The translations under genes and the position numbers were made by a program. Below the pieces are notes generated by a model. That model searched no databases, was not told where the DNA came from, and saw only the letters and a program-made list of their open reading frames with translations. Below, one piece after another: positions 46,324 through 64,000 of a stretch of DNA of 64,000 bases; position 1 is the stretch's first letter; each line of letters begins with the position of its first letter. This stretch comes from Paramacrobiotus metropolitanus (lineage: Eukaryota; Tardigrada; Eutardigrada; Parachela; Macrobiotidae). The stretch lies in NCBI RefSeq assembly GCF_019649055.1, contig NW_026570267.1, positions 992,001-1,056,000 of the forward strand. The letters are read 5' to 3'.

Positions 46324-47990
46324 CGAAAGGGATCAAAAATCCGAATGATAACTGGGGCACTTAACATTACATGCGTGTTACGGCGTGTACATTAATATAT
46401 TAAAGTAGAATTACTGTTCAAAGTTCCAGGAATATGCGTTTTACAAACACCAAGATTAGCAGCAGAAGGATTTCTTTGAATCTCCCAGAGTTGCAAGCCT
46501 GCTCGTTTGAAAGATCAAATTTCACCACTACTGTGCACAGTGTGCAGTCGATAGAGTTTATACAAAGACTTCCCAATACGGAGCTGCAGAAATGCTTTTG
46601 AAAATAGGCAGAATCGATCGATAAGATCCTTCTTCGTCTACCTATTTCAGCGACCGCTTTCTTACATACTTCAGTATCGTATTGCTCGTACTGTACTTCG
46701 TAAGTTCGTACATATCGTACAGATGATGTGCTGTACAGGATTTACAGACAGTTTTTCATCTTTCGCGCTTTGCACACGACGCGGGTGACTCCATCCATGT
46801 GGTCGTGCGCCTCAGTCGAGGGGGAAGGGCCTCTCGTTTTCATCAAACCATGGCAGTGCCGTGTAATGCCTTGATCAAACTGTGCAACTGACATTCGCCA
46901 TCGGCATTGGGAGTGGGCGAATTTGTTTAATCAGCTTTTGCAACTGGATTCCTTTTTAACCCGCTTTGTGATGCTCGGCTTGCTCTTTGTTGGAGCGCCA
47001 AAATGTTGCATTATTCCCAATCACGTAAAAATTTGTTTTTATCGTTTTCGTGAAACGAAGGTGTTATTAAGGGATACATCTCGGTGAAACTGTTCACTAT
47101 CGACGATCTTGTACTGTACCAGCCAATATGACAATATTAAGGCTGGCACACATACAATGGACGACAAAAAAGAAGCTGAAATCGACCGGCCGGTGTGCGG
47201 TCGCGCCTCATAACTTCTTTTTGTCGTGCACTGTACGTTCGTTTAAAAGCCAGACCCATAAGTACATATTTCAGCGTATGCTCGATAATATCTATATAGA
47301 TATAATGACTTTGTTTTCAGTTTTGTGCATGGACCTGAAACACGCATAAATAATCATTAAGGCTGTGTGCACGGGTGTTGGCTGCGGCCCAGCCTGCGGG
47401 CATGGGATTCCTGCACGGGCGTTGGCTGTGTGCACGAGTAATTTATTTTATTTTAAATTTTACTTGAGTTCTTTATATTCTTTTATTTCGCAGTTTGTTA
47501 CGTATGTACTTTCGAATTTGACTCAACTTGGAACCGTAATTTTTCCACAAAAATACAGTTACTTTGTTGTACAGTACAATACACAGTAAACACTATGATA
47601 CACAGCTGGCAGTTATGCTTGGCTGTTAGTGCAGTACTGTGAAGTGTGAAATACTTGAAATTCACAGAGTAAGAGGAATCGAAGACGGGAATTTCTGTAA
47701 TATTTTTTCCGGTGTAACACATTCGGAAGCTAGACCTTCCTGTTAGGCTAAAGGTCAAAGTAGCAAATGGGCCCGTGCCCTTGGTAAAAAACCGCGCCTA
47801 CGCAAGTAGCGCATCCAACCGCGTGGAAAAAACGCTGAGCCGCGAAACAAAAATATCAGTAACTATTTCTACATCATGGCACTTGAAAAAATATGTCAGA
47901 AAACCGGTAGCGAAACCTGTTGCGATTAAATAAAAAATTAAATGCGATTAAAAATGTAACAGACAAGCACGAGGAGATCACGAGTGATGC
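46324..47990. other. Region without recognised gene
   Basis: Only short frames. This is the last stretch of the AT-richer part before the composition changes near 48.05 kb. Confidence 0.4.
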
Positions 47991-47996
47991 TTTATT
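47991..47996 (-). terminator. Candidate polyadenylation signal at the left end of the GC-rich locus
   Basis: AATAAA on the minus strand, placed where a minus-strand transcript running through 64-48 kb would end. Whether the locus is transcribed this far is inference. Confidence 0.35.
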
Positions 47997-50734
47997 GTAC
48001 AAATAAAGTGGGGAACAATGCTGCGTAATAGCAGGAAAAGCAAGAACAAAGCACTGATGGCTAATAGCAAGTGGATGCTAAAGGGTTCTTGAGCGTCTGT
48101 GGCGTGAAAGAAGCAACTGGCGGCAACCACGTGCTGTGTGCCATCAGCTGTGTGATGATGCGCAGACTGGACTCAATCCAACGCGAGCGTATGAACGCTG
48201 AGTCATACTGCGAGAGAGGAACGAGAGAGCAAGTGTGGCTCAGTGTATGCGCTGCGTATATCCGCTTCAGCGGATGAGTGCAGTGCAGCAGCACACGTAC
48301 GTACAAGCGAGAGAGGCGGTAACGGCAAGCAATGGGTGCAAGTACGTCCTGCGTGGACCGTACGCACCAGGCGCAGTCGTGGGCCTCTGACATGCCTCTG
48401 GGCGGGAATCCGAGCTCCTGCGAAGGATGCTCTGACTCAGTACCGCACCAGTACCGCACAACTCTCCGGTTAGACCCATGTGGGGTCGCCGGTACGCGTC
48501 CTCTGGCAGTGGGAGTCCGGTGTCTGGTCGACCGTCCCTTCTTCACTTCCGAACCCATGAGTGGAAACCACTCACGGCCGAGAAATCCGGAAGCCGCTCG
48601 GGCGTTTCGTTGGACCGGTGATGCATCTGTTGGCTGGCTTCTTGCTTCTGTTGGCATCGGAGAACAATGTGAAAAGAAATGTAATGAAAATTTATGCAGC
48701 GCGAAAGAAAAGTATGAAATAAAGTTTTAATCACAATTCCAGTGAGCAAAAGGGGTTACAAAACAGATCTGTCAAAGAGATCGAACTAGAAAAATACAAT
48801 TCCGTTTGTTAGGAAAAATGCTAAAAAAAATCTGTCCGGGGTTCCTATTCCGACTAGGATGACGTCCACAGGGCAATTGAGTCTCCACGGGGTCTCCTGT
48901 CCACTTTCATCCGGTAGGTTGGGTCCGGGGCATCAGTTCCCAGGTTAGCCGTCGTAACCGGTTACATTCACCGAAGTCGGGTAAGCACGGTTAAACACTT
49001 ACTTCCGACTCGTATCCGTCCGTTCGGGATAGAGAGGCACTGTTGCGGTTGCAAATGCCGAGGCATCCTCTCTGAATGGGGAATAGGACCGAGGTCGGTT
49101 TGACCAAGGTCGGCCTACCGGTAAGTCGACCGGCGGCTGGGGTAATTCGGCTATGTTCCGAATTCCGAAAGTTCAGGTCGGAAAAAGCTGTATGTAAGTC
49201 ATGCGGCCTTTGTGGTCGTCATGTACAGCAGTTCCGTTCAAAAAAGTGGTCGATTACAACCGTTCAATCTGCTACCACGAGCCTGGTTTGGAGTTATCCG
49301 AGTCGAACTGGCTCGAAGGTCCGGTCGGAATTCATGGGTTTCGTCGATGGAAGTGTCCAGTCGACTTCCATCCGGTATGTTCCGTTGTTGTCCGACTTTC
49401 TGTCGAGGTCGGTCATCCTATCCATCGGTGGTCGACTAGGGTTAACCTGCAATGACAGGCCCATGTGGGGCTAAATAAGTTCCTTCAAGTCGAATTTGTC
49501 CACCGCAGACAGCTATCGGTCTTCTTCCGTCATGTTGACCGAGTTTCCGACTTCCGACTTGTAGTCGGTTATGGTGAACTTCGGAAGGTCGGATGAACTG
49601 TGTGCTCATCCGTCCGAAGACTGAATTTTTCCGTTAGGAGGTCGGGTCTCGACTTCCAAATGGCTTTGCCGACTTGTTGTCGCGTCCGTCCGCCTTCTCT
49701 GCGGTCGCTTCCGATCTCGACTTGAGGTCGGTTATTCATGCCAAAGTTCTGAGGTCGGCTATCTTCCGACTTCCTTAGGTCGGATAAACTTTGTGTTCAT
49801 CCGTCAAAAGGGTAGGCGCTTCCGCAGGGAGGTCGATTTCCTACTTCTAATTCCTTTTCCGACCTGTTGTCGTTTACTTCCGACCTCCATCTGGTGGCTT
49901 CCGACTTTAGGAGTTCTGTGCATGCGGCTACAGTTGGCCGGGTCTCCGGTGTTCGGACATCCTTCGGTCAGCGTTGACTGGCAGAAGGATGTTCGGCAGC
50001 ACAACTCCGTTCCTTCTGTGGTTCCTGACATAAACTCTGGGTCGGATCCAGGTTACTGTTGGCTGGTTGTACCTCTGGGCGGTCGAGTCTCGTGCAGTCG
50101 CGACTTCTCCTGGCATCTGTTGGCCGAGTGACTGGCGCTTCATCATGGGATTGTGCTCGCTTACAACGCTAAGGGTCTTTGTGGCCCCAGTTGCCGAGCT
50201 CTTTGGTTTTAAACTTCATGCACATGCAAGTCCCTGAGGTCATCAGATCCGATTCTTCCGTTTTGTTTTGCCGCGAACCTGAGACGCCTAGCCACTTCTG
50301 TTGGGGGTAGACGACTCACGTCCACGGGGAAATTGTTGTTTGCCAGTGACGCTGCCCAATTGGCCGGTACTGTTGCGGGCAAGTGGTCATCGTCATCGGG
50401 GGTTCATTAAGGGGGGTGCAGGCCGAGTATTGTAACTCAGTCTGCCTAGGATGTTCCATTGAAGACATGGGGAAGCAGGTCGCGGCGGAGTCGTTGGTAC
50501 ACCGGTATCCAAATCACCGTCGCTATTCCTCTTCAGGGAATGGCAGCACGTTCGAGACGCGCGTAGTCGTGGTCACCGGTAAATCGGTTGGTTCCGATAT
50601 CCTCCGGGGGAGACTCGATTGGATGCCAGGTACAGAGCCTGTAGGTCTGGGTTCAACGGAGAATCCGGTTAACTAACACGTGGCTACTGCTAGCTTCCGT
50701 CCATTCTTCATGGTCGACTTCTGTTGGCCGTTAT

Positions 50735-50755
50735 AGTCGACCTCTGTGGTCGGCT
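50735..50755. repeat. Short hairpin, loop TCTGT
   Basis: Eight-pair stem AGTCGACC/GGTCGGCT (one G-T pair), loop TCTGT, in the non-coding GC-rich stretch. Confidence 0.85.
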
Positions 50756-50837
50756 GCCGTATATCTAGTCGATCTGTGTGGTCGGCTAGAGATCACGTTC
50801 CACGTTTCCAAAACCGGTCTTTGTGATCGGCTTGCAC

Positions 50838-50858
50838 AACCGACCTTTGTGGTCGGTT
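50838..50858. repeat. Short hairpin, loop TTTGT
   Basis: Perfect 8-bp stem AACCGACC/GGTCGGTT with loop TTTGT. Confidence 0.9.
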
Positions 50859-50904
50859 AGTGCGACAATATCCTTTATGTCTCTGAATCAAGGGCAAAGT
50901 ACAA

Positions 50905-50925
50905 AGTCGACCTTTGTGGTCGGCT
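50905..50925. repeat. Short hairpin, loop TTTGT
   Basis: Eight-pair stem AGTCGACC/GGTCGGCT (one G-T pair), loop TTTGT. It has the same stem as 50735-50755 with one loop change. Confidence 0.85.
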
Positions 50926-51625
50926 CGAATACTTATAGTCAAATCCGAGTCTTCCTGCACTGTTGGCGGCTCGGCCGAGGGATATCCGCTGTTTACACTG
51001 GTGAAGGCTGCTCAGCTACCCGGTTCCGAAGTTGGCCACGGGTGCTTGGCAAACATGGTGCTGAGCACGCAGCGACGTATTCAGCGCCATGTTAGCGTAA
51101 TCCTCTCGGTCTATGCTCCGGAGTCGGTTGGCCGGAGTAATCTTCATAGCCGGTCGTGGTTAATGGCGTGATCTGTACCATGTAACTATCGGTCGGCTCC
51201 ATGTAACGCGGATTGGGGCTTCTGTTGGCTCCGATAGTCGCAGAACGTGGTTGACGATCTGCCAGTGCCATGCTGGGGAACTGAGGTCGGTTTGCTCAGT
51301 TCTATCCAGGGGATTCCTCGGAGGACGTACCGGAACGGTGGAAAAGGCCGGCTTGTCAGGTCTAACCACTCGTTTCCGGGTCAAACCGAAGAATCCGGCC
51401 AACTTGTGTAGTCGGCACTCTGGCAAAAGTCATCGTTGACGTCCGCCGTATACATGGTTAGTCGGTTTCTGTAAAAAGAACTAAAGAAAAATGTCCATTT
51501 CGGAGTCGTTTCTTGGCGGTGCTGTTTCTCCGTCAGGTCGATTCTCGACCGTGCCGTTTCTCGGCGTTGAGTCCCCTTAGTTGTTCGAAGTGGGGGGGAT
51601 CGAGTTCCAATGTGGGAACTCGATC

Positions 51626-53791
51626 TTAACTGAGTGGGACTTCGACGGGCTTGTCGCCGCCGAAGTAATCTTCTTCCTCATCATCGTCCGGGCCAGGTCG
51701 GTTATGTGGCCGTATATTCGGGTCCCTAGGTCCGCAAGTTGCCGGGCCACTCCGTTGAGACATCTCGTCGGTCTCATCCGTTTCCTGGCCGGGGCGATGC
51801 GGGGCGATGGCCGCCTGTTTCCGGAGCCGCAGCGCATACGGTCGTGCGCCGGGTGCTATGTCGTCCGACATCCAAGGTTCGTAGGGCGATGAGTTGAATC
51901 CGCTAGGCAAAGTCTTCCTTTGGCGGTACCAGCTGATGAATCGGGTTGCGTCGTCGCTGGGATCTACGTGATCCTCACGAAAGGGATACTTTGTCGCATA
52001 CCGTTCGTGGGTATACAGCAAATCACGCATCCAGACGGCGAGGATTACACTTCTCATTGGTGTGCCAAGTTGGGCTACGAGGGTTTCCAAGGCCGCTGGT
52101 ATCATTTCGTTCTGGTACAGTCCGTACAGGGTGTAATGGCAAAAGTAATTGCCAAGTCGAGCTGCGAAAATGAATCGCAGGTATGCCGTGACTCCGTCTT
52201 GGGCCATGTCGACTTCCCCTTCGGGAAGATGCTGGGTTAAGTCCAGTGCTGCCCGAGCCGCGGTAATTACAAAAGCTGGGTGGGCGTCCGTGATGACGAA
52301 CTGGGCAATACTTTCCAACTCGTCATGGGAGTATTCCCGAGCTCCTAGTTGGCTCGCACGCGTTCCGTCCGGGCTGTATAGCGGTACGTTCAGTAAGACC
52401 GGGTCAGTCATCGACGGTAACGCATTCGATCTGGTATACGGATGTTCAACATTCTGTGCTGTGTGCGCAGACATGTTGAAGTCCGGTTGCCATTGATGTT
52501 GTTCAAGCAGCATCTGGTATCCAGATCGGACGAGGAATTGACGAAGGTTTTCTACCATCCGCCAGACTTGTGGTCGGTTCCGTTCCTCGTAGTTCATAAC
52601 GTTCATGATGTGATTTGTTCGTTCAGTCGGATGTGGCATTACGACTTCAGTTCCCTGTCGTCGGGCATGGTCGTACCGAGGATCTGCTCGGGCCGGCACT
52701 TCCACTTGTGGCAGTTGTGCCATCTGGTCGGCCGCATCGACGTCCATTTGCTCTTGTTGAGCTGCTGGTTCGACTTGGACTGCCGCTGCCGGTTCTGCCT
52801 GATGGACTTCCGGCTGCTGTTCGGGTGGGACGAAGTTACGTTTCGACTTATTTGTTAAGTCGACCGTAAGTCCGATTCCTGTTTCTCCAGATCCAGTGCG
52901 TTTTCCTGGTGGCGGTCTGGTCGGCTCTTTTCCGACCTGGCGGATGACAGCTCGTTGCTCTTCGATTTTGTCTCGAAGATCAACTGGGCCAATTCTATGT
53001 CGAAGGTCGTGTCCCGCTAAATTTTTGCTAGATCGGCGCTGCTGCTGTTGAGCCGCCGATTGGGTCCGAGTTCCGTGTTGGGGGATCTGCTGAGAGACAG
53101 TTGGACGGGCCTGTGTGACCACTGGCGTTGCCCTGTGTGGGATTGCCATCAACTGTTCCTGAGTCACCGGAACAAGGGTAACCGGCTGTTGGGTTCCGTC
53201 CGGCATGTTCATCATCATCGTCACCGATGCACTCGTCAATGGTCGGTGTGGATCTCCGATGAAGACGTCGCGTACATCGTGGATCAGCTGTTCGCTATCC
53301 GAGCGACCCTGTGTGGGTGCCGGTAACTGAATTTTTATTTCTGGTTCATAGTCGGTCGGTGGGGGATGGACTTTCATCAAGGCGATTCGTTCGTCGACCT
53401 CTTTGATCTTCTTTTGGTCCTCCAATTGACGATTAGCGTCTTGCAGCTGACGGTACTCCCACAGTCTATCTGTTAAGACTGGTGGTCGAGTTCCTTGCCT
53501 TGTCGGGTCGCGAGTGCGTTGTCGCTGGATGGTGGCCAGATTGTCCTGTTCATGCGACTCTAGTTGGTCGACTAGATATTCTCTGCCGGCCAGGTACCGA
53601 TATGCGCTCAAGTTACCAGCGACAACATTAATGTAAAGTGCCGCTGCCTGAGCTCGATGTTGCGGTCCAGTGCCGGTAACCCGTTCGTTTGTAAAGGATA
53701 CGATGCATTGTGCGCAGGGTAATCTGTTGTTGTCCCTCGTCGCGTTATTCCTGCACTGTTGGCAGTCCACCGTATAAGCTTCCGTACGAGT
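51626..53791 (-). CDS. ORF A: unrecognised protein with N-terminal CxxC pairs
   Basis: Minus-strand frame of about 721 codons ending in TAA. There is no ATG near the start. The frame begins right after a good splice acceptor (CTTTTGTTTTGACAG) at 53792, so I read it as an exon. An N-terminal VDCQQC ... LPCAQC pair could bind zinc. A helical region with a Gln/Arg-rich coiled coil follows (about residues 60-140), then a long Pro/Gln/Ala-rich disordered middle. A well-folded-looking C-terminal half contains HDELESIAQFVITDAHPAFV, a Tyr-rich stretch and Trp-rich segments, and the protein ends in an acidic tail (DDDEEEDYFGGD). I recognise no family; no RT, integrase, polymerase or protease motif is present. 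Confidence 0.7.
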   Translation of the reverse strand, partial: TRTEAYTVDCQQCRNNATRDNNRLPCAQCIVSFTNERVTGTGPQHRAQAAALYINVVAGNLSAYRYLAGREYLVDQLESHEQDNLATIQRQRTRDPTRQGTRPPVLTDRLWEYRQLQDANRQLEDQKKIKEVDERIALMKVHPPPTDYEPEIKIQLPAPTQGRSDSEQLIHDVRDVFIGDPHRPLTSASVTMMMNMPDGTQQPVTLVPVTQEQLMAIPHRATPVVTQARPTVSQQIPQHGTRTQSAAQQQQRRSSKNLAGHDLRHRIGPVDLRDKIEEQRAVIRQVGKEPTRPPPGKRTGSGETGIGLTVDLTNKSKRNFVPPEQQPEVHQAEPAAAVQVEPAAQQEQMDVDAADQMAQLPQVEVPARADPRYDHARRQGTEVVMPHPTERTNHIMNVMNYEERNRPQVWRMVENLRQFLVRSGYQMLLEQHQWQPDFNMSAHTAQNVEHPYTRSNALPSMTDPVLLNVPLYSPDGTRASQLGAREYSHDELESIAQFVITDAHPAFVITAARAALDLTQHLPEGEVDMAQDGVTAYLRFIFAARLGNYFCHYTLYGLYQNEMIPAALETLVAQLGTPMRSVILAVWMRDLLYTHERYATKYPFREDHVDPSDDATRFISWYRQRKTLPSGFNSSPYEPWMSDDIAPGARPYALRLRKQAAIAPHRPGQETDETDEMSQRSGPATCGPRDPNIRPHNRPGPDDDEEEDYFGGDKPVEVPLS

Positions 53792-53974
53792 CTGTCAAAA
53801 CAAAAGTAAGCAAACCGTTTCTCGGTTGCATCCTATACTTTTACACCCTATGATTACTACGGTCGGGCCAAGTCGGTTCTCGAGCTGGTCCGAGACGCCT
53901 TTGTGGTCGTCTATGAGGTAGATCGACTTCTGTTGGTCGATGACGCCTGTGTGGTGTCAATGGAGGAAGGTCGG
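53792..53974 (-). other. Spacer between ORFs B and A, probable intron with hairpins
   Basis: Contains three short hairpins (53813-53827, 53894-53911, 53922-53941) and the left half of a fourth zone (53942-53958). A good acceptor lies at its right-hand sense end. A donor candidate inside ORF B (GAACGAG followed by GTAACG, near 54006) is phase 1 while the acceptor exon reads in phase 0, so the join is unresolved. Confidence 0.45.
53894..53958. repeat. Cluster of three short hairpins
   Basis: 53894-53911 has GACG-CC/GG-CGTC arms with a one-base bulge and loop TTTGT. 53922-53941 has arms ATCGAC/GTCGAT. 53942-53958 has arms GACGCC/GGTGTC and loop TGTGT. They are nearly back to back. Confidence 0.8.
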
Positions 53975-56668
53975 TTATGCCACTCCTCCAACGCATTCTG
54001 CGTTACCTCGTTCCCGAGTAGGTGCTTCTGTCGACTCCGGCCGACTTGCTGTGTGCGAGTCGGCCGACTCGGTCGGTTGTGCCGAAGTCGGTCGTGTAGT
54101 CGGTAAATGTCCGTGCCGGTGAGTCGATGGGTTTAGGGCCAGAAACCGTTGACCACCCTGGGTTTTATCCGTATTCGAGGCGAACCGCTGTTGGTTAAGC
54201 GCCTTCGACAAGACGAATTCCAGGTCGTCCTCCAGGGAATACTTCGTTCGTCGTTCCGTCGGGTCCGGTTTCGGCTTATACTTTGGATCGGTTAGCTGGG
54301 GTTTCTCAGTTTTCCATTCGAACTCAAACCGTGCCGTGAGTTGGTGGAGTATTTCTCCACGGGTCAATCCTTCCGGATGCCATGACATTCCCATACACGC
54401 TTCGATAGCGTGTATCCATCCTTCATATGTTGAAGGAGCCGGGTCTCTTTGGGCCGGTGGGAACTCGTAGTACATCCGTTTTCCGCTGGTGTATGTTCGT
54501 ATCAACTTCCGTGCATGGTATCCCAAGTCACAGTAATGTCGTACATTATTCTGGCTCAGTTGTCGCCAGTCGCCCTTCTCGTCTACCTTCCAGTGTTGGA
54601 GGAGTTTGAAGGCGATCCTTGGTGTGGCGAACTTTGGTCCTTTTGTCGCAAGGGCCTTCAGGGCGGCGAACGTGTACATCCATCCTGCGTCATATTCCGA
54701 GACACTCGGCTTCGGTTTTGAAGCCGATTTAATGCCGGTATACTTTACCCTAACTTTGACCAACGGACGAATGTCGTCTGGTAGGACTTCCATCGTATCT
54801 TCATTCCATTCCGAGAGAAGAGGCTGTTGGTCAGTATCGGGGGTCAATGATATTCGTTGACCGTACTTGCGAGGGACGTATACTCCACCATCTGCCTCTT
54901 CGCCCTTAGGATCATCGGCTTTATCACCGCTATCCTTTTCTTCAGGTTGTTTATCCGGTATCTCCGGTTCGCCCTGCTGTTGAGGTGCCGGGTTTGACGG
55001 TGGTGGAGGTTTACCATTCTCGTCGTCGTCATCGTTATCGTCCTTTGGCGACCCGTTCCCAGGTGTTTGGAAATCGTCATCATCATCGTCGTCGGTTTCT
55101 TCCTCGGAAGACGAGATTAGTTCGGATGACTTCGGTTCTTTCTTCTTAGCCGGCTTAGTCGACTTCGTCTTAGTCGGCTTTGACTTTCCCTTCTGTTGGG
55201 TAGAGTCTTCCGGCTCCGGTGAAATTTCCATGGGCGAGGACGGTGGAAGTGACTGTACGTCCTTCGGGATGAATCGTCCTTTCGCGCTCCGAGTCGGCTT
55301 TGCCGTGCTTGCTCGTCCCGCTGGAGCCGCTGCCATGCCGACATATGTTGTCGGTTCAAAGGGCGCTCGAGGTCGGGATACGACTTGGACTCGTCTTTGT
55401 GACGACTGTCCAGCCGTACGAGCTATGTGCAGCAGGTTGGCTGCTTCGTCCGACGGTTGTTCGTTGGAGTCACTATACTCTTCGGTAGGTTCCGTACCAG
55501 CCGGAGGCTTGTCCGTATTGACGTAAGACATCCGGAGGTTAAATTCACGCCGATGTTGTTCCGGTATGAAGTTGGGCACGGTGTATCGTACCGGTACATC
55601 GCGTTCCGCGTTCGTCGTCTGAAGGGTATGTTCCACGACCAGGGCTTCGATTCGACCTGCTATATGGTCGATAATGTCATCGATGTTGCCCTTCTTGTCC
55701 ATGTACATCACGTTATATACACGGGCAATTTGGACCAAGGTCGATCCGCGGGGGTTCCTACTGTATCCGATACACCGCGCAATTCTAGTCGGTGTGTCGT
55801 CCGCGTTTCTTGCGGCTGCACTTCGGAGTGCTTTGATGAGATCCGGTGGGAGCAGTTCGGCCATACGTCCCCATTGTCGGTGAACGGCTACTGCTAATCC
55901 GAAATCCAAAGTCCAGGCGACGATCTGCATCATGAGTTGATGCGTCAACCACTTTCCGGTTTCGCCTCCGACCTGAATGTTGTTGGACAGATCTCGGACT
56001 AAGGACTGGTAAATGTCCGCGCCGTTTTTTCTGGCGTTTTCAATGCTCCTTACGACCTCTACGTGTACCCGAACGGTACGGATTAACGTCTCGACCGGGT
56101 CATCCGGCTGTTCATCCGGAAGACGCTCGCGTACGTCGTCTGGGGCTGGCCATTGTGATTCGTCAGTGTCCGCTCCATGGTCGAACATTTCTTTCAGGTC
56201 GCCTTTAAATCCTTCATAGGGATCACCCTCTCCATGGTCGGAGATTGAATCCTTTTCTTCGATGTCCGAGATGTGGTCGGATTCCGCATCAGACTGTTGC
56301 TTGGATGTGGAAGGCTGACTTTGTTCGATCGGAGTCGGCGGTTTTGGTGGGTTCCGTAGCCGACCTCCTGAAGTCTTAGCCGGCTTTGTGCCAGTTCGCT
56401 CCATGACTTCCTTGAATTTACGCTCCACCGCTTCCTTGTCGTGCGGTTGTTGAGCCTTTTCCTTCTGCTCGGTCCTTTGTGGGCCGGCATCTGAGATGTC
56501 CAGGTCGTCGGACGATTTATGTCGTTTGGCCGGATTAGGTTTCGGCGTCTTTCGGAGTCCGATTTCGGTTTGGTCGGTTCCTTGACTTCCGACTTTATCG
56601 GTTTCTTCTGAGTTTCCGTCGGTTGCGGCTTGGCAGGCTGTTTCGTTGCTTCTTTCTTGGCCTTCCGT
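53975..56668 (-). CDS. ORF B: unrecognised, two folded domains around acidic linkers
   Basis: Minus-strand frame open from 56668 to a TAA at 53975; an ATG appears only about 88 codons in. Order: Lys/Ser/Asp-rich start; a helical domain of about 170 residues (containing TGKWLTHQLMMQIVAWTLDF and PTRIARCIGYSRNPRGS); a long disordered region with Lys/Pro tracts and poly-Asp; then a second folded domain (WMYTFAALKALATKGPKFAT, AFKLLQHW, NVRHYCDLGYHARKLIRTY, KRMYYEFPP). The helix-helix-hairpin pattern of the last part would suit a winged-helix fold, which is inference. The first 475 nt overlap ORF C in a frame shifted by -1. No known family recognised. Confidence 0.7.
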   Translation of the reverse strand, partial: TEGQERSNETACQAATDGNSEETDKVGSQGTDQTEIGLRKTPKPNPAKRHKSSDDLDISDAGPQRTEQKEKAQQPHDKEAVERKFKEVMERTGTKPAKTSGGRLRNPPKPPTPIEQSQPSTSKQQSDAESDHISDIEEKDSISDHGEGDPYEGFKGDLKEMFDHGADTDESQWPAPDDVRERLPDEQPDDPVETLIRTVRVHVEVVRSIENARKNGADIYQSLVRDLSNNIQVGGETGKWLTHQLMMQIVAWTLDFGLAVAVHRQWGRMAELLPPDLIKALRSAAARNADDTPTRIARCIGYSRNPRGSTLVQIARVYNVMYMDKKGNIDDIIDHIAGRIEALVVEHTLQTTNAERDVPVRYTVPNFIPEQHRREFNLRMSYVNTDKPPAGTEPTEEYSDSNEQPSDEAANLLHIARTAGQSSQRRVQVVSRPRAPFEPTTYVGMAAAPAGRASTAKPTRSAKGRFIPKDVQSLPPSSPMEISPEPEDSTQQKGKSKPTKTKSTKPAKKKEPKSSELISSSEEETDDDDDDDFQTPGNGSPKDDNDDDDENGKPPPPSNPAPQQQGEPEIPDKQPEEKDSGDKADDPKGEEADGGVYVPRKYGQRISLTPDTDQQPLLSEWNEDTMEVLPDDIRPLVKVRVKYTGIKSASKPKPSVSEYDAGWMYTFAALKALATKGPKFATPRIAFKLLQHWKVDEKGDWRQLSQNNVRHYCDLGYHARKLIRTYTSGKRMYYEFPPAQRDPAPSTYEGWIHAIEACMGMSWHPEGLTRGEILHQLTARFEFEWKTEKPQLTDPKYKPKPDPTERRTKYSLEDDLEFVLSKALNQQRFASNTDKTQGGQRFLALNPSTHRHGHLPTTRPTSAQPTESADSHTASRPESTEAPTRERGNAECVGGVA

Positions 56669-59600
56669 TTATCCTTATGGGATTTCGCGGAGTTGGCGGA
56701 GTTGATAACTCTTGTGTCGAGATCTTCGTCGATCTGGACGGAAGGTTGCCTGGTCGGTGGGGGAACTTTTATCCTGACGACAGGTTGTTGTACTGTCTTC
56801 TTAGTCGACTTGGGCTCCGGAGCGGTGACTTTGTGTCGAGTCGGCGTAGCCGCTTGTAAGGCTTTAGGTCGACTCTTTTCCGCTCGGTAATGTTCTCCCA
56901 TGCGTTTCATGACGTCAGACATCTTCTTGGTAAGTCGGTCGTGGTCACGCCGAGCTTCCGTGGTGTTTCCGACTATGCTGGCACGTCGGATTCTCAGCGA
57001 GTGCCAGAGTTCCCTATCCTCCGGGTATGCCATATCGATGCAGGCATCCTGTTCCGACCTCGTCAGGTCCTTTACATGTTGTAAGGCTGGGTCATCGTGG
57101 AATTCGCGCGACGAGTCCTGAGGTGGTTTCTTTTTAGCCGTACTCCGTTTGGTCGGTATGTTTACCGGCTGCTTTACTGACTCGTTTGTTCGAGACTCGT
57201 CAATTGTTAGACGTGGGCCGGAGTGTACCGAGGTCGGTTCGTCCCTTTGTGGTGACGTTTCGACCGTTGTTTCGACTCGCGCTTCTGAAGGGGATGTTGT
57301 GTCCATCTCCTCTTGGGTTTTCTTCGGTTTCGTCGGAGTGTTCCGAGGTGAGAACCTAGGTGGTTTCTCAATCGTCGGTCGACTTGGCAGCTTAGTCGGC
57401 TGGGATGCTGATCGGGTCGGCGAAATTTGTTTTACCGGCGATCTGCCTCGTTTCGGCGTGGATCCCTTTGGTGGTGCCGCTGCCTTCTGGTGAATAGAGT
57501 CGTCGGAGTCGATATTGTCCGCGTTCTCCTCATCTTCGCTACTATCCGACATTGTTATCGGAATCTTCTCGGTTACCTCTTCTCCGGGCCGAGGTTGGAT
57601 CTCCAGCGTATAGGCGCCTGGGTTGATACTGGGGTTGCGGAGCCGTTGGATCGTTTGGATCATGTTAGAGTCCAGCGGGAGTTGTCGTAACTCCTGCTTT
57701 CCGCATCTCAGAGTTACCAACCGTCTCAGGACTTTGTCCCTATCCTGGATCGTAGCGTGGATCTTCTGGGCCGTTTGAGTCTGTTGCTCTTCCGTCATGG
57801 TCCGATCTCGGATACCTCCTTGAAGTTGTGCTTCGTAGAGTATCCGTTGAAGGTCCAATGTTTTGGCTTGGCTGACCAGTTTCTTGTGGACGCCTGGAGT
57901 AAACAAGGCCTTCGCTCCCATCACCTTCCGTGACGGGCTCGGCTTTTCTTGGGCCGGAGGTACGGAGGACGAAGTCGCCTTCAGCAGTTCCAAGAATTGC
58001 TCCTTGGTTCTAGCTGGTGATGGCGATCTTGTCGGGAAGAGACGCCTGCGTGGTCCGTGCTCTTCTACCCGCTCGCTCTGGGGTTCTCTTTGTGAGAGCC
58101 CCGATAGAGTCATCGGTCGTTCGAGAGGCTTAGGTCGGTTAGCTTCTGTCGCTCCGACTTCGTCCGACATGTCCATCGGTTCGTCTTCTCCTTCCAGTCC
58201 CGGTACTGGCAAGTCGTCCATCGGCTCGTCTTGGTGACTCACCGGTGAGACTACCTGTGTCGGCTTGACGGGTTGTACCTTAGGCTTCTTGGCGGAGGGC
58301 GGCTTCTTCAGCTTACGTTGCTCTTCCGCTTCCTTCCGCTTATGGAAGTCATCTACGAAGGATTGAATCATGGCCGTCAGAGTTTGCAGCCGTTCCTGAT
58401 TCTTTGCCGACCACACTGTTGTTGGTCGGAGGATGAATCGGGCTTCCTTGGTGTTGTTTTCCAAGTGTCCGAGGTTGATGTCGATTTGACAGTATTGCGG
58501 AGTCCGTTGGTCGGTTTCGTCCATCATCTTTCGGAGTTCGAGGATGACAGCGTCCGCTCGCAGTAACTGTGTGTTAACTGCTTTTACCCATTCAAGATCG
58601 GGTTTGGCTGGTGGGGCTGGAGGTGGAAGTCGGACAGAATCGAAGTTTGGTTTCCGAGCCGACTGGATCTTTGTGATCCGAGACGGCCGACCTTCAGCCA
58701 TGGCGTTTGTTGCCAGGTTGGTGGATTCGCTCTGTTTGTCCCGCTCCTTCTCTTCCTCATACTCGTTCACCCTTGTTTCCAACCATGAGGTTGTTCGGAT
58801 CAGATGTTGTCGAGTCCTGGTTGTCTGTGGGGCGTCCGGATGACAAAGTCGTCGTATGAACCGGGCATTGTTACCCCACGCCAAGATATCTCGGTCCAAG
58901 TCGTTTGCTTCTTGGCTGTTATCCTCACAAAAGTTTCTGCGGGCTCTCATCTCTGTGATGAGTTCCGCTACTCGAGCCAATAGTTTGACTATGTGTGGCG
59001 CGACCGTACTCGGCAGTTCGTCCGTGTCCGGTATGGCTTCCATGATCCGAGCTTCCGTGGCCGGAGACATGGGCCGGTCGGCCATTTCCATCGGTTTTGG
59101 TCGGGCCGATCCTACTGTTGAGGTCGGCTGGAGTTGAATCCGAGCTGTTGTCGAAGTCGGCTGGCTCGAGGTAGTCGGCTGTTGCGAACCAGGTGCGCGT
59201 TGTTCCGCTTTCCGGTATTCTTCCAGTTCTTTCCGTCGTAAAATCTCGAGATCGACTTGCACGTCCTGAATGTGCATTTGGGAGACTCTAATTTGGTCTC
59301 CGATTGCCGTCCGAATATTACGGATGGTCGGATCTGTTCCGTCCATACAGTCAACTTGACGTTGCAAGCTGTCGGCAATCCTCCGTGTACGAGCCAACTT
59401 ATCGTTAAGGGCTTCGCGCTGTTCCGCCAATGTGGGCTCGAGCGGTTGTTGCGAAGCAGTCGGCTGCGGCTGAGTGGAAGTCGGCTGAACCCTTTGTGGG
59501 TTAGCTTCCAAGATTTTCCACAAGTCTTCGACCCGCCTTGAGCAGATGCTGTACTGCTGGTCCAAGGCATCGCGCATTTGTTTTTCCATGGCGTTATTCG

Positions 59601-60417
59601 GGTCGAGTTCTCGGAGTTGTTTTCCGAGCTTCTCCATGACGTCGACCGCTTCTCGGTACTGATTCTCAACTTCGCCGATGTCGACTTCCTTTTGGTCGAC
59701 TACTTCTGCGAATGGGAGTTCGACGTCGAGTCCGGGTGATGGGACTGGGGAGGGTGTTTTCTGGCCCGTTTGTACTGGCGCTCCCGCTTTGTTCGGGTTT
59801 GCCAAGTACTGTTTAACGTAGTCGATCACCGACTGGAGTGCTTCGATGAGTCGGTCTCGATTCGGACCTAGTGGGGGAGTTCCCCATGAGCCTAGAGTAT
59901 CGGCCCAGTCCAATTCGAGCCGTAAGGCTCGGTCAACTCGGGTGAGGTCGGTTGCCTCCTGATCCGTTATGGGTTCACCAAGTCTGTGGAAGTAGATGTC
60001 TGCCAAATCTTGTCCAGCTTGGGCAATTATGTCCAAGTTAGCCGGTAAGTTATCCATAGGCGTTGTGCCGACTAGAGTCATCACCGCTGTCGTAGTCGGT
60101 GCTACTCGGCGAGGTGGCGACGGTGTGGCGATCCGAGTGTACTCGGGTTCCGCGTTGAGGATCTCTGTGATGCGCTCAACTGCCGACCTGAGTTGTCGTT
60201 CGTCGACATCGGTCGGTTCTTTTTTGCGGATGAGATCATCTGCCTTCTTTAGGTAGGCCGTCAGATCGTTCATTTTCTGCCGCGCCACTCTCAAGGTTTC
60301 AGGGTCTGTCGGTGTATTTTGTACAAAGGTTCGCTGGAGGTCTTCCAGTAAGTCCCATCCTTCGCCGATTATGGAGGACATCTTTTCCCTGCGGCTTTTC
60401 CGCATTGCCGAGTGCAT
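56194..60417 (-). CDS. ORF C: large modular helical protein, unrecognised
   Basis: 1,407 codons from an ATG at 60417 to 56194. The frame is in phase with D and E upstream, separated by one TAG (60427-60429). Residues 1 to about 720 comprise at least six helical modules of roughly 70-110 residues, each with a pattern like TDP....R.AI...I.....I..L, separated by Pro/Thr/Ser/Gln linkers. The second half is disordered and basic, with clusters such as SDSSEDEENADN and PTKPKKTQEEMD. The last 130 or so residues (after about KPKSDSERR) look like an out-of-frame reading of ORF B, so the true protein probably changes to frame B there. No enzymatic motif. Spectrin-like three-helix bundles are an alternative reading. 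Confidence 0.72.
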   Translation of the reverse strand: MHSAMRKSRREKMSSIIGEGWDLLEDLQRTFVQNTPTDPETLRVARQKMNDLTAYLKKADDLIRKKEPTDVDERQLRSAVERITEILNAEPEYTRIATPSPPRRVAPTTTAVMTLVGTTPMDNLPANLDIIAQAGQDLADIYFHRLGEPITDQEATDLTRVDRALRLELDWADTLGSWGTPPLGPNRDRLIEALQSVIDYVKQYLANPNKAGAPVQTGQKTPSPVPSPGLDVELPFAEVVDQKEVDIGEVENQYREAVDVMEKLGKQLRELDPNNAMEKQMRDALDQQYSICSRRVEDLWKILEANPQRVQPTSTQPQPTASQQPLEPTLAEQREALNDKLARTRRIADSLQRQVDCMDGTDPTIRNIRTAIGDQIRVSQMHIQDVQVDLEILRRKELEEYRKAEQRAPGSQQPTTSSQPTSTTARIQLQPTSTVGSARPKPMEMADRPMSPATEARIMEAIPDTDELPSTVAPHIVKLLARVAELITEMRARRNFCEDNSQEANDLDRDILAWGNNARFIRRLCHPDAPQTTRTRQHLIRTTSWLETRVNEYEEEKERDKQSESTNLATNAMAEGRPSRITKIQSARKPNFDSVRLPPPAPPAKPDLEWVKAVNTQLLRADAVILELRKMMDETDQRTPQYCQIDINLGHLENNTKEARFILRPTTVWSAKNQERLQTLTAMIQSFVDDFHKRKEAEEQRKLKKPPSAKKPKVQPVKPTQVVSPVSHQDEPMDDLPVPGLEGEDEPMDMSDEVGATEANRPKPLERPMTLSGLSQREPQSERVEEHGPRRRLFPTRSPSPARTKEQFLELLKATSSSVPPAQEKPSPSRKVMGAKALFTPGVHKKLVSQAKTLDLQRILYEAQLQGGIRDRTMTEEQQTQTAQKIHATIQDRDKVLRRLVTLRCGKQELRQLPLDSNMIQTIQRLRNPSINPGAYTLEIQPRPGEEVTEKIPITMSDSSEDEENADNIDSDDSIHQKAAAPPKGSTPKRGRSPVKQISPTRSASQPTKLPSRPTIEKPPRFSPRNTPTKPKKTQEEMDTTSPSEARVETTVETSPQRDEPTSVHSGPRLTIDESRTNESVKQPVNIPTKRSTAKKKPPQDSSREFHDDPALQHVKDLTRSEQDACIDMAYPEDRELWHSLRIRRASIVGNTTEARRDHDRLTKKMSDVMKRMGEHYRAEKSRPKALQAATPTRHKVTAPEPKSTKKTVQQPVVRIKVPPPTRQPSVQIDEDLDTRVINSANSAKSHKDKRKAKKEATKQPAKPQPTETQKKPIKSEVKEPTKPKSDSERRRNLIRPNDINRPTTWTSQMPAHKGPSRRKRLNNRTTRKRWSVNSRKSWSELAQSRLRLQEVGYGTHQNRRLRSNKVSLPHPSNSLMRNPTTSRTSKKRIQSPTMERVIPMKDLKAT
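56470..56486. repeat. Short hairpin, loop TTTGT, in the C/B overlap
   Basis: Six-pair stem CGGTCC/GGGCCG (one T-G pair) with loop TTTGT. It lies inside the region where frames C and B are both open. Confidence 0.85.
58080..58102. repeat. Short hairpin, loop TTTGT, inside ORF C
   Basis: Nine-pair stem GGGGTTCTC/GAGAGCCCC (one T-G pair), loop TTTGT. Confidence 0.92.
58665..58679. repeat. Short hairpin, loop TTTGT, inside ORF C
   Basis: Perfect 5-bp stem GGATC/GATCC, loop TTTGT. Confidence 0.85.
59484..59505. repeat. Short hairpin, loop TTTGT, inside ORF C
   Basis: Stem GCT-AACCC/GGGTT-AGC with one bulged G, loop TTTGT. Confidence 0.88.
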
Positions 60418-60426
60418 TTCCGCCGC

Positions 60427-60792
60427 CTATGAAGTCGACGGTAGCACGTCCGAAGTTTCCGTGTCAGAATCCTCTGGTCGTTGTTGACTCCGTGACTGTG
60501 GCCGGCGTTGGCTTCGGCTATATTCCCGCAGCTGATTGATGCTGTTCATTACGAGTCGAAATTGGACTCCCGGTTCGACCGTGCCTGATTGTATCAGGTT
60601 CTTCACAAGTTGTATGTGAGTGGCGAACTCGGAGGTTATCCTCTGCACGTTCAGCTCGAGTCCTTTCTCGGCGCGTTGCTGAATCCGTCTTAGAGTGTCT
60701 TCCGCCTCCTGTATGGCGATTTCGCCGTAGAGGATTGCCCTGTTGGGTGATGAAGGTTTCGCCGTTACGACCTGTGTGGTTGGTGGCGGAGG
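60427..60792 (-). CDS. ORF D: short helical module between two TAG codons
   Basis: Open frame of 121 codons lying between the TAG that ends E (60793-60795) and its own TAG (60427-60429). It is in the same frame as both E and C. It starts PPPPTTQVVTAKP, then forms one helical module (AILYGEIAIQEAEDTLRRIQ, HIQLVKNLIQ) and a Ser/Arg/Gln-rich end before TCA TAG. It has no usable ATG at its start, so it is unlikely to be an independent gene. Confidence 0.6.
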   Translation of the reverse strand, partial: PPPPTTQVVTAKPSSPNRAILYGEIAIQEAEDTLRRIQQRAEKGLELNVQRITSEFATHIQLVKNLIQSGTVEPGVQFRLVMNSINQLREYSRSQRRPQSRSQQRPEDSDTETSDVLPSTS

Positions 60793-61914
60793 CTATGAGA
60801 TCGGTGAAGTCGCAGCGGCTCCGAGTGGTGACGTCGTCGGTTGGACGTTGTCCGTCGGTGAGGTCGGATGTTTCTCCGCCAAAATGGCCGTCTTCACCTG
60901 ATCCATAGCTGTTCGGAGTCGGTGTTTGTCCACCTCTGTGGTGGGCAAACCGTACCGAGTAAGATCTTCAGTTAGCCCTATGTGGGCTATGAGATCGTTA
61001 ATTTTCCGAACTGGATCTATAGTGGTAGGATCTCGGATTCCGTCAGCTATGCGTCCGTAGATTCCTTGTAGGGCTTGTTTGCCGTCAAGGATGGTTTTCC
61101 AGACTTCTGTCGTCTGACCGATCTGCAGTGCCATCGCATGGTACCTGAGCTGGGGAACCTGTTGTTCGGCTCGACCTGTCTGGCTCTGGATTATCTGTTG
61201 AATCCTTCGGTAATGCATGTCCAGTCGGATGGCCTGATCGTCTGTGGTTATGCCGTCATGCTGTTCCGCTAGTTGGCGGGTAATCCGTAGGCTCCGGTAC
61301 AGATCGTTCACTGTCCGGCCTCTGTTGTTAATGGCTACTAAGTCTCCGCCTTGCGTCATCCTTAATCCGTCGAGAATTGTGTCTCCGGCTTGGATGGCGG
61401 ACCGTACGTCTGCCAATGTGGGCATTGGTACGGCCGATGACCGACGTTCAGCTGCGTCCAAGTTCTGGACGAGCTGGGGATACCGATTCATCCGGTTCTG
61501 GGCATTCCGTATCCTTGTTCGGATCGCGTCCAGTTGTTCTATGTTCGTCGGCATTCCTGTGATCAAATATGACTGGAGTTTTGTCATATAGTCACGGATG
61601 GCTCTGCTGTCGTTATCGATGTTCATCGCCTCTTCTGTTCTTGGCGTATCTTCGAGGACCGCGCCCATCCGTTCTATGACTATACCAGCCATTCGTAGAA
61701 AGTCCCGTAGCTCCTGCAGTGTTGCGGTAACACTGGTGGGCCTTGTGGGACATGCAGTGTCGGGTTCGCTTGTAAGATCGGGACTTGAATTGGTGGCAAC
61801 CCTTGGCCTACGTTCCACGTCATCATAGGTAAGGGTTGACTCGTTGGAACGACCACTGGTTGGGACGTCTTCGGCTGCAACGCTCGGATTTCGTTTTCCT
61901 TCTCCGTCAGCTTC
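60793..61914 (-). CDS. ORF E: modular helical protein segment
   Basis: Minus-strand frame open from 61914 to a TAG at 60793, with the first ATG about 60 codons in. It has three helical modules (containing LQELRDFLRMAGIVIERMGA, LADVRSAIQAGDTILDGLRM and IGQTTEVWKTILDGKQALQG) joined by short linkers, then a Pro/Thr/Ser-rich end. The first 235 nt overlap ORF F in a -1 shifted frame. A 98-nt GT-AG intron (donor after TGGAAC, acceptor ACTGCAG before GAGCTACGG) would also join F to E in phase. Confidence 0.65.
   Translation of the reverse strand, partial: EADGEGKRNPSVAAEDVPTSGRSNESTLTYDDVERRPRVATNSSPDLTSEPDTACPTRPTSVTATLQELRDFLRMAGIVIERMGAVLEDTPRTEEAMNIDNDSRAIRDYMTKLQSYLITGMPTNIEQLDAIRTRIRNAQNRMNRYPQLVQNLDAAERRSSAVPMPTLADVRSAIQAGDTILDGLRMTQGGDLVAINNRGRTVNDLYRSLRITRQLAEQHDGITTDDQAIRLDMHYRRIQQIIQSQTGRAEQQVPQLRYHAMALQIGQTTEVWKTILDGKQALQGIYGRIADGIRDPTTIDPVRKINDLIAHIGLTEDLTRYGLPTTEVDKHRLRTAMDQVKTAILAEKHPTSPTDNVQPTTSPLGAAATSPIS
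60924..60950. repeat. Short hairpin, loop TCTGT, inside ORF E
   Basis: Eleven-pair stem GTTTGTCCACC/GGTGGGCAAAC (one T-G pair), loop TCTGT. This is the longest of the family. Confidence 0.95.
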
Positions 61915-63503
61915 TTAGTCCAATGCTCGATAAGCTCGGTATTGCCCAGAACGGTTTCCGGGTAATGTTCCTTGGTTGGATTGAGTATGGCCAGGCGTTT
62001 CTTCACCTCGTTTATCTCGTGGAGATATTCGTTGCGCTTTCGTGCTAAAGCGTCCAGCCGGGCTAATCGAATTTCTTCGTCAATCACCGCCTGTGTGGTC
62101 CTTCCCATCTCAGCGGTGTAGTTCTCCGCTGTGTGGGGGATCTTGGAGTAACTCATTCTGAGTTTCACTGCCTCCTTCATAGCCTCCTCCTTTTGAACAC
62201 GGAGTTTTCCGATCTCCAGTGAAGGTGTTCGGCCGGGCACTTGTTGGCCTGCCGAAGTCGACGGAGTTGGCTGAGTTGCCTGGGAGGTCGGCGTGACAAC
62301 CTGTGTGGTTATCGCCGGTGGACCTGGGTCAGGATCTCCCAGTCTCTGGGCAACATGCCGAGCTACCGCTTGCTGGCAGATTCGGAGGGACGTCTGTTCC
62401 TCGGCATGGAGCTTTAGGTTGGCGTCGTTCAAGCGGTTCTCGTAATACGACAGTTCAGCCAACAACCTCGTTCTGTATGGAGTGTGGCTCGGATCCATCT
62501 GTGAAGTCTGCGTCAGTGCTCGGCTGATCGTGTCTATGTGAGCACGAGCCAGTTTTGCCTGTTGACGCAACTCTGCTTCGGTTCTGCCGTTAGTGTTGAT
62601 TTCTTGGACAACCGCAAAAGGTGGAGGCATCGACGTTACGACCTGTGTGGCCGTCGCCGAAACAGGCACTTGTTGGCTCTGTCCTCCGACCTGACTTCTG
62701 TGCTGGTTCAGCCGGTTCATTAAGTGGGTCGTCGCGTTCGGATCCATCCAGAAGTTCTGTTGTCTGGGCTGTCCGAGATGAGTCGGCGAGATCGGTGGCG
62801 TAAGCAATACTGGCCTTGGTGGCGAGATTGTGCCATCCGGGCTGACCATACTCATCGTTGCGATCGTCATGGCTGGGGGTGGCATTCCGGGCGTCTGCGG
62901 GACCGATACAAATCGCATCGGCGAGCCACTATATGCGAAGCTACTCGGCGCCAATGTGGGCGTCGTGTAGATCGGACTAACTGTATTGACCATGCCGGGC
63001 ACCATTGTCGGTGTCGGATAAAATGAGACAGGCGCGTTCGCCATCCCTGGCACCGTTGTGGGTGTCGGGTAAACTGCTCCGGTCATCATTGTCGATGCCG
63101 AGCTGGTCGGCCCGACTATTGTAGTCGGTACCGGCCACTGATAGGGTGGCATTTGGCCATGTGGGCCTGCTGCCGTTGTCGGAGTCGTCTGACTCATTCC
63201 AGTTCCGAGGTTCCACAAGCAGCCTGTGTTATCGACTGCTGTGTTCGGTGGCAGGATCTGCGGTGGTATCGTTCCACGTTGGGGCCCGACCGTAAGACCT
63301 GCTAAGACATTAGCTGTTACGTTAGCTTGAGGATTGTCTACCTGCGGTAAAGGCGTCTGTGTGGCCGACCGCGAATTATCCGATCGCGATGTCGAGGGAT
63401 GAGTCGGGTAGGGCTGCGATCGGTTCGATCCGCTACCGCTACGTCCGCTATTAGATCCGCTAGAAGGTGGGTCGTGTCGGTGACGACCTGACATTGTTGC
63501 TTG
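61680..63503 (-). CDS. ORF F: Pro/Thr-rich N-terminus plus helical modules
   Basis: 604 codons from ATG 63494, preceded by a strong splice acceptor (TTTCCTTTCCCTGACAG, exon from 63503). Residues 1-280 are low-complexity Ser/Pro/Thr/Met-rich with imperfect repeats of the type YPTPT.VPGM.N. Residues from about 300 hold two helical modules (AKLARAHIDTISRALTQ; IDEEIRLARLDALARKRNEY then ELIEHWTKKLTEKENEI). The last 20-30 residues look like an out-of-frame reading of ORF E. I recognise no family. Confidence 0.7.
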   Translation of the reverse strand, partial: QATMSGRHRHDPPSSGSNSGRSGSGSNRSQPYPTHPSTSRSDNSRSATQTPLPQVDNPQANVTANVLAGLTVGPQRGTIPPQILPPNTAVDNTGCLWNLGTGMSQTTPTTAAGPHGQMPPYQWPVPTTIVGPTSSASTMMTGAVYPTPTTVPGMANAPVSFYPTPTMVPGMVNTVSPIYTTPTLAPSSFAYSGSPMRFVSVPQTPGMPPPAMTIATMSMVSPDGTISPPRPVLLTPPISPTHLGQPRQQNFWMDPNATTHLMNRLNQHRSQVGGQSQQVPVSATATQVVTSMPPPFAVVQEINTNGRTEAELRQQAKLARAHIDTISRALTQTSQMDPSHTPYRTRLLAELSYYENRLNDANLKLHAEEQTSLRICQQAVARHVAQRLGDPDPGPPAITTQVVTPTSQATQPTPSTSAGQQVPGRTPSLEIGKLRVQKEEAMKEAVKLRMSYSKIPHTAENYTAEMGRTTQAVIDEEIRLARLDALARKRNEYLHEINEVKKRLAILNPTKEHYPETVLGNTELIEHWTKKLTEKENEIRALQPKTSQPVVVPTSQPLPMMTWNVGQGLPPIQVPILQANPTLHVPQGPPVLPQHCRSYGTFYEWLV

Positions 63504-63670
63504 CTGTCAGGGAAAGGAAATACGGCGCGTTAGAATTCTACTAACTCCCGTACATTCAACTGAAGATGTTCCGGTCAACTGAAGAGATTCCATTTCGACA
63601 CCAAAGGTCCATCTATGCCTAGCTACTGTTAAGCTACCTAAAACTTATTTTAAGTTCTACTCCCATGGCC

Positions 63671-64000
63671 CTATGACTGAGTCTGTTCGGTTGTGACTGC
63701 TGTTTTGGGTGTCTTGGATTTTGCTGTTTTGACTGGTTTCTCCGAGTCCGCCCGTCCTTCAGAAATTCGTTCGAGGATTTCCTTGTGGGCTTCATCTTCA
63801 GCGACTCCAGTTTCCTCCAGCATCTGTTGTGCTGTCAGCTTCGGTTTCTTAGCTGTCCCATACTTCCGTTCCGGCTTGGTCGGTTCGACTGCGTGCTCGG
63901 CTACTACGACTTCCGTGGTCGGTGCCGATGTGTTGGGTATGTCGACCTTCCGCTTTGTATACTTCCGCTTGGGCTTAGTCGGTTGGACTGCCGAGTCGGC
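63671..64000 (-). CDS. ORF G: Lys/Pro-rich frame running off the window edge
   Basis: Minus-strand frame open from the window edge to a TAG at 63671-63673, again in the context TCA TAG. It contains two copies of the motif EPTKP.RKY / QPTKPKRKY and a helical stretch (TAQQMLEETGVAEDEAHKEI), then a Lys/Thr-rich end. The composition matches ORFs B and C, so it is probably the upstream exon or neighbouring frame of the same locus. Partial. Confidence 0.55.
   Translation of the reverse strand, partial: ADSAVQPTKPKRKYTKRKVDIPNTSAPTTEVVVAEHAVEPTKPERKYGTAKKPKLTAQQMLEETGVAEDEAHKEILERISEGRADSEKPVKTAKSKTPKTAVTTEQTQS

Follow-up and report, generated by a model that had tools for sequence, protein, structure and literature searches.

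The locus and the retrotransposon it contains

The DNA analysed here is a stretch of 64,000 nucleotides (hereafter the window) that corresponds to positions 992001-1056000 of contig C47 in a eukaryotic genome assembly of ~170 Mb. Positions 1-47954 of the window are ordinary host DNA with a guanine-plus-cytosine (GC) content of ~0.41, in which Pfam identifies Rpb2-like, septin and TANGO2 genes. From position 47955 onward the GC content rises to 0.54, a strong AT skew sets in, and almost every long open reading frame (ORF) lies on the minus strand. A giant, ~30-kb long terminal repeat (LTR) retrotransposon of the Ty3/Gypsy type contributes its 3' half to this region (47955-64000, minus strand), which carries the hairpins that are the subject of this report. 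An initial annotation, made from the letters alone, had drawn attention to a family of micro-hairpins in the 48-64 kb part without recognising the retrotransposon as the surrounding DNA; the observation is confirmed and proved to be larger than first noted. We conclude that the hairpins constitute an RNA recognition element which is dispersed, selected for its structure and under a constraint that does not depend on the protein code.

Besides the shift in base composition, the identification of the element draws on protein domains encoded in the loci L009 and L010 and on a complete copy found elsewhere in the genome. The gag-pol region lies beyond the window, in L009, and the order of the Pfam domains in L009 and L010 (gag-asp_proteas, RVT_1, Integrase_H2C2, rve) is that of protease, reverse transcriptase and integrase; this arrangement of domains, together with motifs recognised by eye, is the basis of the Ty3/Gypsy assignment. 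The complete copy, on contig C98 (28863-58665), measures 29.8 kb from end to end and has an LTR of 434 bp on either side, the two sharing 99.5% identity. Its 5' LTR (L044:2863-3296) matches the 3' LTR of the window copy (~434 bp; 47955-48392, minus strand) at 90.6%. Immediately after the 5' LTR in L044 stands TGGTAGCAGA, a candidate primer binding site that would be complementary to the 3' end of the initiator tRNA-Met. The element family is present in many copies in the host genome.

A recurrent hairpin with a constant loop

In the sense RNA of the element, the principal hairpin (class I) consists of a variable stem of ~5 bp, a C-G closing pair and the pentaloop ACANA (heptamer CACANAG); CCGACCACAAAGGTCGG is a short example of this type. 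Position 4 of the loop is free: all four bases occur there, most frequently A and C. All hairpins quoted in the initial annotation are present where it had placed them. Its description of the loop as ACANN, mostly ACAAA, holds with respect to the pentaloop and is refined here to the consensus C[ACANA]G; the proposed extent of 48-64 kb does not hold as a limit, as it merely coincides with the 3' half of the element, and the hairpins continue through gag-pol outside of the window. CACANAG sites are found in the leader, in gag-pol, in the 3' ORFs and in the untranslated region.

The sense strand of the window copy contains 50 CACANAG sites in 25 kb, the antisense strand a single one. Thirty-six of these 50 sites pair at five of six positions and count as hairpins, compared with 204 of 1727 other words of the form CNNNNNG. 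On the plus strand of the window, where the loop reads NNTGT, perfect stems of at least 4 bp number 19 in 48-64 kb versus 5 in 0-48 kb. ACANN loops are entirely missing from the plus strand of the 48-64 kb region (0 found), and the hairpin feature is therefore strand-specific. When stems of at least 5 bp (perfect or with G-U pairs) were considered over the 16 kb, 19 ACANN pentaloops were observed, whereas dinucleotide shuffles led us to expect 1.7 (z 12.7). Pentaloops as a whole are in excess as well (108 versus 66 in dinucleotide shuffles), while loops of 4, 6 and 8 bases show no clear excess over such shuffles; loops of 7 bases show a weaker one, perhaps because an open closing pair turns the same heptamer into such a loop. 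When loops of 4-7 nucleotides were scanned without bias across all classes of the first three bases, the ACA pentaloop stood far above the others as the only strong class (z 7.3; next class 3.4). A scan of the window with Rfam gave 0 matches above the gathering score.

Could the hairpins have arisen by chance, or as a by-product of codon usage and of the bias for the word GTCGG/CCGAC? The words CCGACC and AACCGAC are truly in excess and supply the letters of several stems. However, C[ACANA]G hairpins were seen 10 times, against 0.20 in codon-preserving shuffles (maximum 2 in 200) and 1.27 in shuffles that also preserve the dinucleotides at codon junctions (maximum 4 in 100), and the dinucleotide shuffles likewise give far fewer hairpins. 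Moreover, the set includes stems unrelated to CCGAC (AACCC, CTCATC, GGATC, CTGGC, TAGCCC). Shuffles preserving codons and dinucleotides, in which the initial annotation had seen the grounds on which its claim might fail, thus do not reproduce the number of hairpins. Chance or codon bias is rejected by the shuffles together with the synonymous-site test and the pooled covariation described below, and its probability is practically negligible.

As a separate observation, the sense words CCGACC, AACCGAC and CCAACAG are ~5-10 fold more frequent than dinucleotide shuffles predict; this holds for several copies (47955-64000, L009, L012, L013) and for every frame. No clear common stem surrounds CCAACAG.

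Structure, covariation and selection

When CACANAG sites are taken regardless of their stems, the flanks pair at positions 2-5 well above the level of shuffles in the window copy, in the gag-pol region of L009, in copy C98 and in the diverged copy C41, whereas no such pairing surrounds CACANAG sites in the host flank. Local folding assigns the closing pair a median probability of 0.99, compared with a mean of 0.04 for other CNNNNNG control words. In a pooled alignment of 49 CACANAG sites that had not been selected for stems, covariation amounted to 0.544 versus 0.166 after shuffling (reached in 0 of 500), with a slid maximum of 0.231. This strong signal derives from pooled paralogous sites; strictly orthologous hairpins alone show modest covariation (0.082 versus 0.069 shuffled, slid maximum 0.080). 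At fixed places, compensatory exchanges of the types U-A/C-G, C-G/U-A and G-C/A-U separate the copies, while differences in the loop fall mainly on position 4. The survival of stems across copies gives only a mild contrast (69% versus 41-51% fully paired). The view that a fixed loop is combined with compensated stems is borne out.

Selection can be followed in an orphan ORF of 1407 amino acids (56194-60417, minus strand) that contains 11 CACANAG sites. Among 19 copies of this ORF, synonymous change is 0.039 in hairpin codons and 0.256 elsewhere, and none of ~1390 circular shifts of the site mask reaches so low a value. The hairpins occupy all three reading frames. From the codon-preserving shuffles, the suppression of synonymous change and the use of all frames it follows that the constraint acts on the nucleic acid, as had been proposed from the distribution of the hairpins over different frames. 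The suggestion that they form a recognised RNA element is well supported, namely by the covariation, the six-fold suppression of synonymous change and the specificity for the sense strand.

Functionless micro-palindrome insertions or repair scars had been named as further possibilities. Hairpin-bearing indels of tens of bases do distinguish some copies within the non-coding cluster at 50.67-50.93 kb. However, in copies with protein identities down to ~62% most coding hairpins stand at the same place without an indel, which suits long-kept sites better than recent insertions; together with the compensatory changes and the suppressed synonymous change, this makes an origin as insertions or repair footprints very improbable.

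Class I sites along the window

The class I sites described below all lie on the minus strand and are given in the sense orientation of the element. Two sites near the 3' end have 9-bp stems: CGGATGAGC[ACACA]GTTCATCCG at 49590-49612 is located in 3' non-coding DNA and reads ACACA or ACATA, occasionally ACTNA, in the copies, and CGGATGAAC[ACAAA]GTTTATCCG at 49781-49803 exchanges G-C, A-T and G-T at pair 4. Further on, CGACC[ACAGA]GGTCG (50738-50752) has the loop ACACA in most copies, and the site at 50767-50787, for which the copies read AGCCGAYCACACAGRTCGACT, shows a compensatory T-A/C-G exchange among them at pair 2. GCCGATC[ACAAA]GACCGGT (50813-50831) contains an A-C mismatch in the window copy where most copies have A-U. 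The loops of TAACCGACC[ACAAA]GGTCGGTTG (50837-50859) and GCCGACC[ACAAA]GGTCGAC (50906-50924) are retained in 28 of 30 and 30 of 30 copies, respectively. Pair 5 of the variant GCCGACT[ACACA]AGTTGGC (51398-51416) alternates between C-G and T-A, and the aligned place in L056, a copy of ~75% identity, reads GCCGACC[ACATA]GGTCGGC.

A single bulged base interrupts GACG-A-CC[ACAAA]GG-CGTC (53894-53911), and an A-C mismatch occupies pair 3 of GACACC[ACACA]GGCGTC (53942-53958). These sites are followed by TCGTC[ACAAA]GACGA (55391-55405), CTGGC[ACAAA]GCCGG (56380-56394) and CGGCCC[ACAAA]GGACCG (56470-56486), the last of which has a C-A mismatch at pair 3 and is identical or nearly so in every covering copy, including C41 with its 75% identity. 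The U-A at pair 2 of GGGGCTCTC[ACAAA]GAGAACCCC (58080-58102) is C-G in L045, L004 and L055, and GGATC[ACAAA]GATCC (58665-58679) is lost in L012 and L052. CTCATC[ACAGA]GATGAG is found at 58946-58962, and the loop of GCTAACCC[ACAAA]GGGTTCAGC (59484-59505) is retained in all 19 of 19 copies. The remaining sites are GTTTGCCCACC[ACAGA]GGTGGACAAAC (60924-60950), TAGCCC[ACATA]GGGCTA (60973-60989), GATAACC[ACACA]GGTTGTC (62295-62313) and ACGGCC[ACACA]GGTCGT (62638-62654).

Additional loop classes

The relatives with TTTCT loops listed in the initial annotation are present and form a second class (class II), with the loop AGANN, mostly AGAAN, in the sense RNA. Seven such hairpins occur in the window part of the element versus 1.5 expected, and 7 in copy C41 versus 1.1 in codon shuffles. 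TCGAC[AGAAA]GTCGG (49392-49406, minus strand) is kept in 22 of 22 comparable copies, its loop being mostly AGAAG, and AACCG[AGAAA]CGGTT (53813-53827, minus strand) is the same in C98 and C41. A tandem pair with a spacing of 16 nucleotides, GCCG[AGAAA]CGGC and GGTCG[AGAAT]CGACC (51536-51565, minus strand), stands directly 3' of the last ORF; the corresponding array comprises five hairpins with five different stems at the same 16-nucleotide spacing in C98 (L011:4872-4936), three in C41 (L013:3168-3200), and two in the window copy.

Two of the hairpins listed in the initial annotation, at 48473-48487 and 63155-63167, have the sense loop CACAT and fall outside of the main class. Together with ~49457-49472 they may constitute a third class (for instance GACCC[CACAT]GGGTC), with 3 seen versus 0.2 expected.

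Candidate readers of the hairpins

A constant loop and closing pair carried on interchangeable stems points to a site that is read by a protein. We favor the view that the hairpins are dispersed cis-acting packaging signals of the giant Ty3/Gypsy-type element, with the element's own Gag as the candidate reader, and assign it a probability of roughly 45%, that is, somewhat short of an even chance. The protein would read the loop and the closing pair, with the stem merely holding the loop in position, and the genomic RNA of 30 kb would be marked by its several dozen sites and helped by them to condense into particles. The nucleocapsid region of Gag is the first candidate because the Gag region contains a putative CCHC knuckle, CNFCKFNNHDQARC, read by eye in the ORFs. 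The AGAAN hairpins may be a second class of sites for the same or another protein of the element. Several points weigh against packaging by Gag: stems are weak at 14 of the 50 CACANAG sites; Pfam does not detect the CCHC knuckle of the Gag region; retroviral packaging is classically assigned to a compact signal in the 5' leader; and the site density is 2-3 per kb in the 3' half versus ~1 per kb in gag-pol, which fits a reader also concerned with the 3' genes.

The same gradient in density somewhat favors a role in export or stabilisation. The hairpins could be bound by an accessory protein, encoded by the 3' ORFs, which stabilises the unspliced 30-kb RNA or takes it out of the nucleus, in the manner of CERV for Cer1. 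The 3' half indeed encodes large orphan ORFs, all on the minus strand. One of 714 amino acids (51626-53770) begins with an N-terminal CxxC...CxxC motif and belongs to no Pfam or PHROG family; others, of 817 amino acids (53975-56428) and the 1407 amino acids introduced above, correspond to segments of an ORF of ~3000 amino acids in copy C41. CERV, the additional protein of the Ty3/Gypsy-type element Cer1 of Caenorhabditis elegans, acts on the genomic RNA; it is required for export of this RNA and possibly has an RNA-binding C4 zinc finger, according to the passages of the source available to search (PMC10309623). The same passages describe neither a repeated hairpin nor a hairpin site for CERV (PMC10309623). 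The orphan proteins themselves have neither a family nor a confident fold: the ORFs of the element in the window match no known family in Pfam or PHROGs, and AlphaFold models of the 714-aa ORF (mean predicted local distance difference test score, pLDDT, 33) and of 420 amino acids of the 1407-aa ORF (pLDDT 58, helical bundles) are too poor for a fold search. Furthermore, sites are present in the leader and in gag-pol too. We consider a reader encoded by the 3' ORFs the main rival of the packaging view, although a less likely one.

The motif is closely tied to this element family. One stem version, CGACCACANAGGTCG, has 554 exact matches in the genome versus 1 for its reversed control, and five of five apparently isolated genome matches that were sampled turned out to belong to additional, in part more diverged, copies of this family; another stem version, GATCCACANAGGATC, has 0 matches in the genome and is uninformative. 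Seven loci representing three further Ty3 families of this genome together contain 2 CACANAG sites in 23 kb, so that a general host factor serving all retroelements is unlikely. This bears on the possibility that a host RNA-binding protein or RNA-modifying enzyme, METTL16-like or another reader of stem-loops, recognises the loop and is exploited by the element. METTL16 acts on UACAGAGAA in a hairpin, and a few loops of the element do contain ACAGAG. However, loop position 4 varies in the element, whereas METTL16 is inactive on nonamers with single changes (PMC6162343), and the scarcity of the motif in the other Ty3 families and the missing flank pairing in host DNA also speak against a host reader, which we regard as unlikely.

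The hairpins might also act without a protein, in single-stranded DNA or through RNA-RNA contacts, for instance when the 30-kb RNA is reverse transcribed, dimerises or folds. Strand specificity and covariation suit any single-stranded form, including complementary DNA. The ACANA loops are complementary neither to one another nor to the AGAAN loops, and kissing is therefore not expected; in addition, selection on loop identity indicates a reader. A role of this kind is accordingly quite improbable.

Relation to known systems

With regard to the packaging reading, the closest parallels come from small RNA viruses. The coat protein of satellite tobacco necrosis virus (STNV) prefers stem-loops with AXXA loops, ACAA being the best, and is indifferent to the stem; the viral genome contains ~30 of them (PMC3593212); MS2 uses an arrangement related to the dispersed packaging signals of STNV (PMC6281560). 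As in these viruses, dozens of short stem-loops with a short loop motif and an indifferent stem are spread along the genomic RNA of the element, in coding and non-coding parts; the stem-loops share a common loop that is fixed while the stems vary, the latter judged by evolution only. STNV prefers ACAA in loops of 4-6 bases, whereas the loop of the element has five bases, ACANA, and is closed by an invariant C-G pair. The carrier differs as well, being an LTR retrotransposon whose RNA measures 30 kb and which has no relation to those viruses.

More tentatively, the element may use such an MS2/STNV-like hairpin code, read by Gag, to select and fold its 30-kb RNA and so escape the usual size limit, with the AGAAN class as a distinct site of assembly or nucleation. 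In passages of a review on giant elements, the packaging capacity of the particle is named as a limit on element size (PMC6431247); if the proposal is true, dispersed signals would be a fitting answer to this limit for a 30-kb RNA.

The packaging and dimerisation elements of retroviruses and Ty1 are likewise cis-acting stem-loops of retroelement genomic RNA. Those of retroviruses are described as a small number of dissimilar stem-loops close to the 5' end, and those of Ty1 are placed at the 5' terminus, whereas the hairpin-bearing element repeats one kind of stem-loop over its whole RNA. Burro and Ogre are Gypsy-type giants of ~25-30 kb with extra ORFs; Burro, a planarian element, has different domains, and the passages available from the source mention no repeated hairpins (PMC6431247). 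The searchable literature, itself incomplete, yielded no report of hairpins repeated within LTR elements. The METTL16 hairpins of MAT2A and U6 are a similar stem-loop with an ACAGAG-like loop; they follow a strict nonamer, whereas in the hairpins of the element C comes first and any base may stand at position 4. We therefore rejected an identity of CACANAG with the METTL16 substrate.

Dispersed packaging signals, whether established or proposed, concern RNA viruses with small genomes; their short and degenerate motifs make them difficult to prove. The motif of the element is strict, occurs dozens of times per RNA and in many diverged copies within one genome, and comes with clean covariation and synonymous-site evidence. 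With this motif, a single protein and a short RNA would suffice for a direct test of distributed RNA signals in retroelements and of the packaging or export of a 30-kb RNA.

Further observations on the element and its host

The 1407-aa ORF has 63 matching stretches genome-wide, with ~57-100% protein identity. In copy C41 (L012:968-10000) one open frame of at least 3011 amino acids runs through what are interrupted frames in the window copy; it seemingly contains several similar helical modules with Pro/Thr/Ser-rich linkers between them. The 714-aa protein has a zinc-ribbon-like C-x2-C...C-x2-C start and a conserved C-terminal half, and no relative of it was found in the viral contigs searched. 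Downstream of the integrase an imperfect repeat of ~70 bp recurs at a distance of 100 bp (window 63860-63928 with L009:360-527).

Within the host part of the window, minus-strand ORFs at 27464-29515 resemble the reverse transcriptase of non-LTR retrotransposons. The host genome as a whole contains at least 150 matches to RT_RNaseH, and many Ty3-type families are present besides the hairpin-bearing one.

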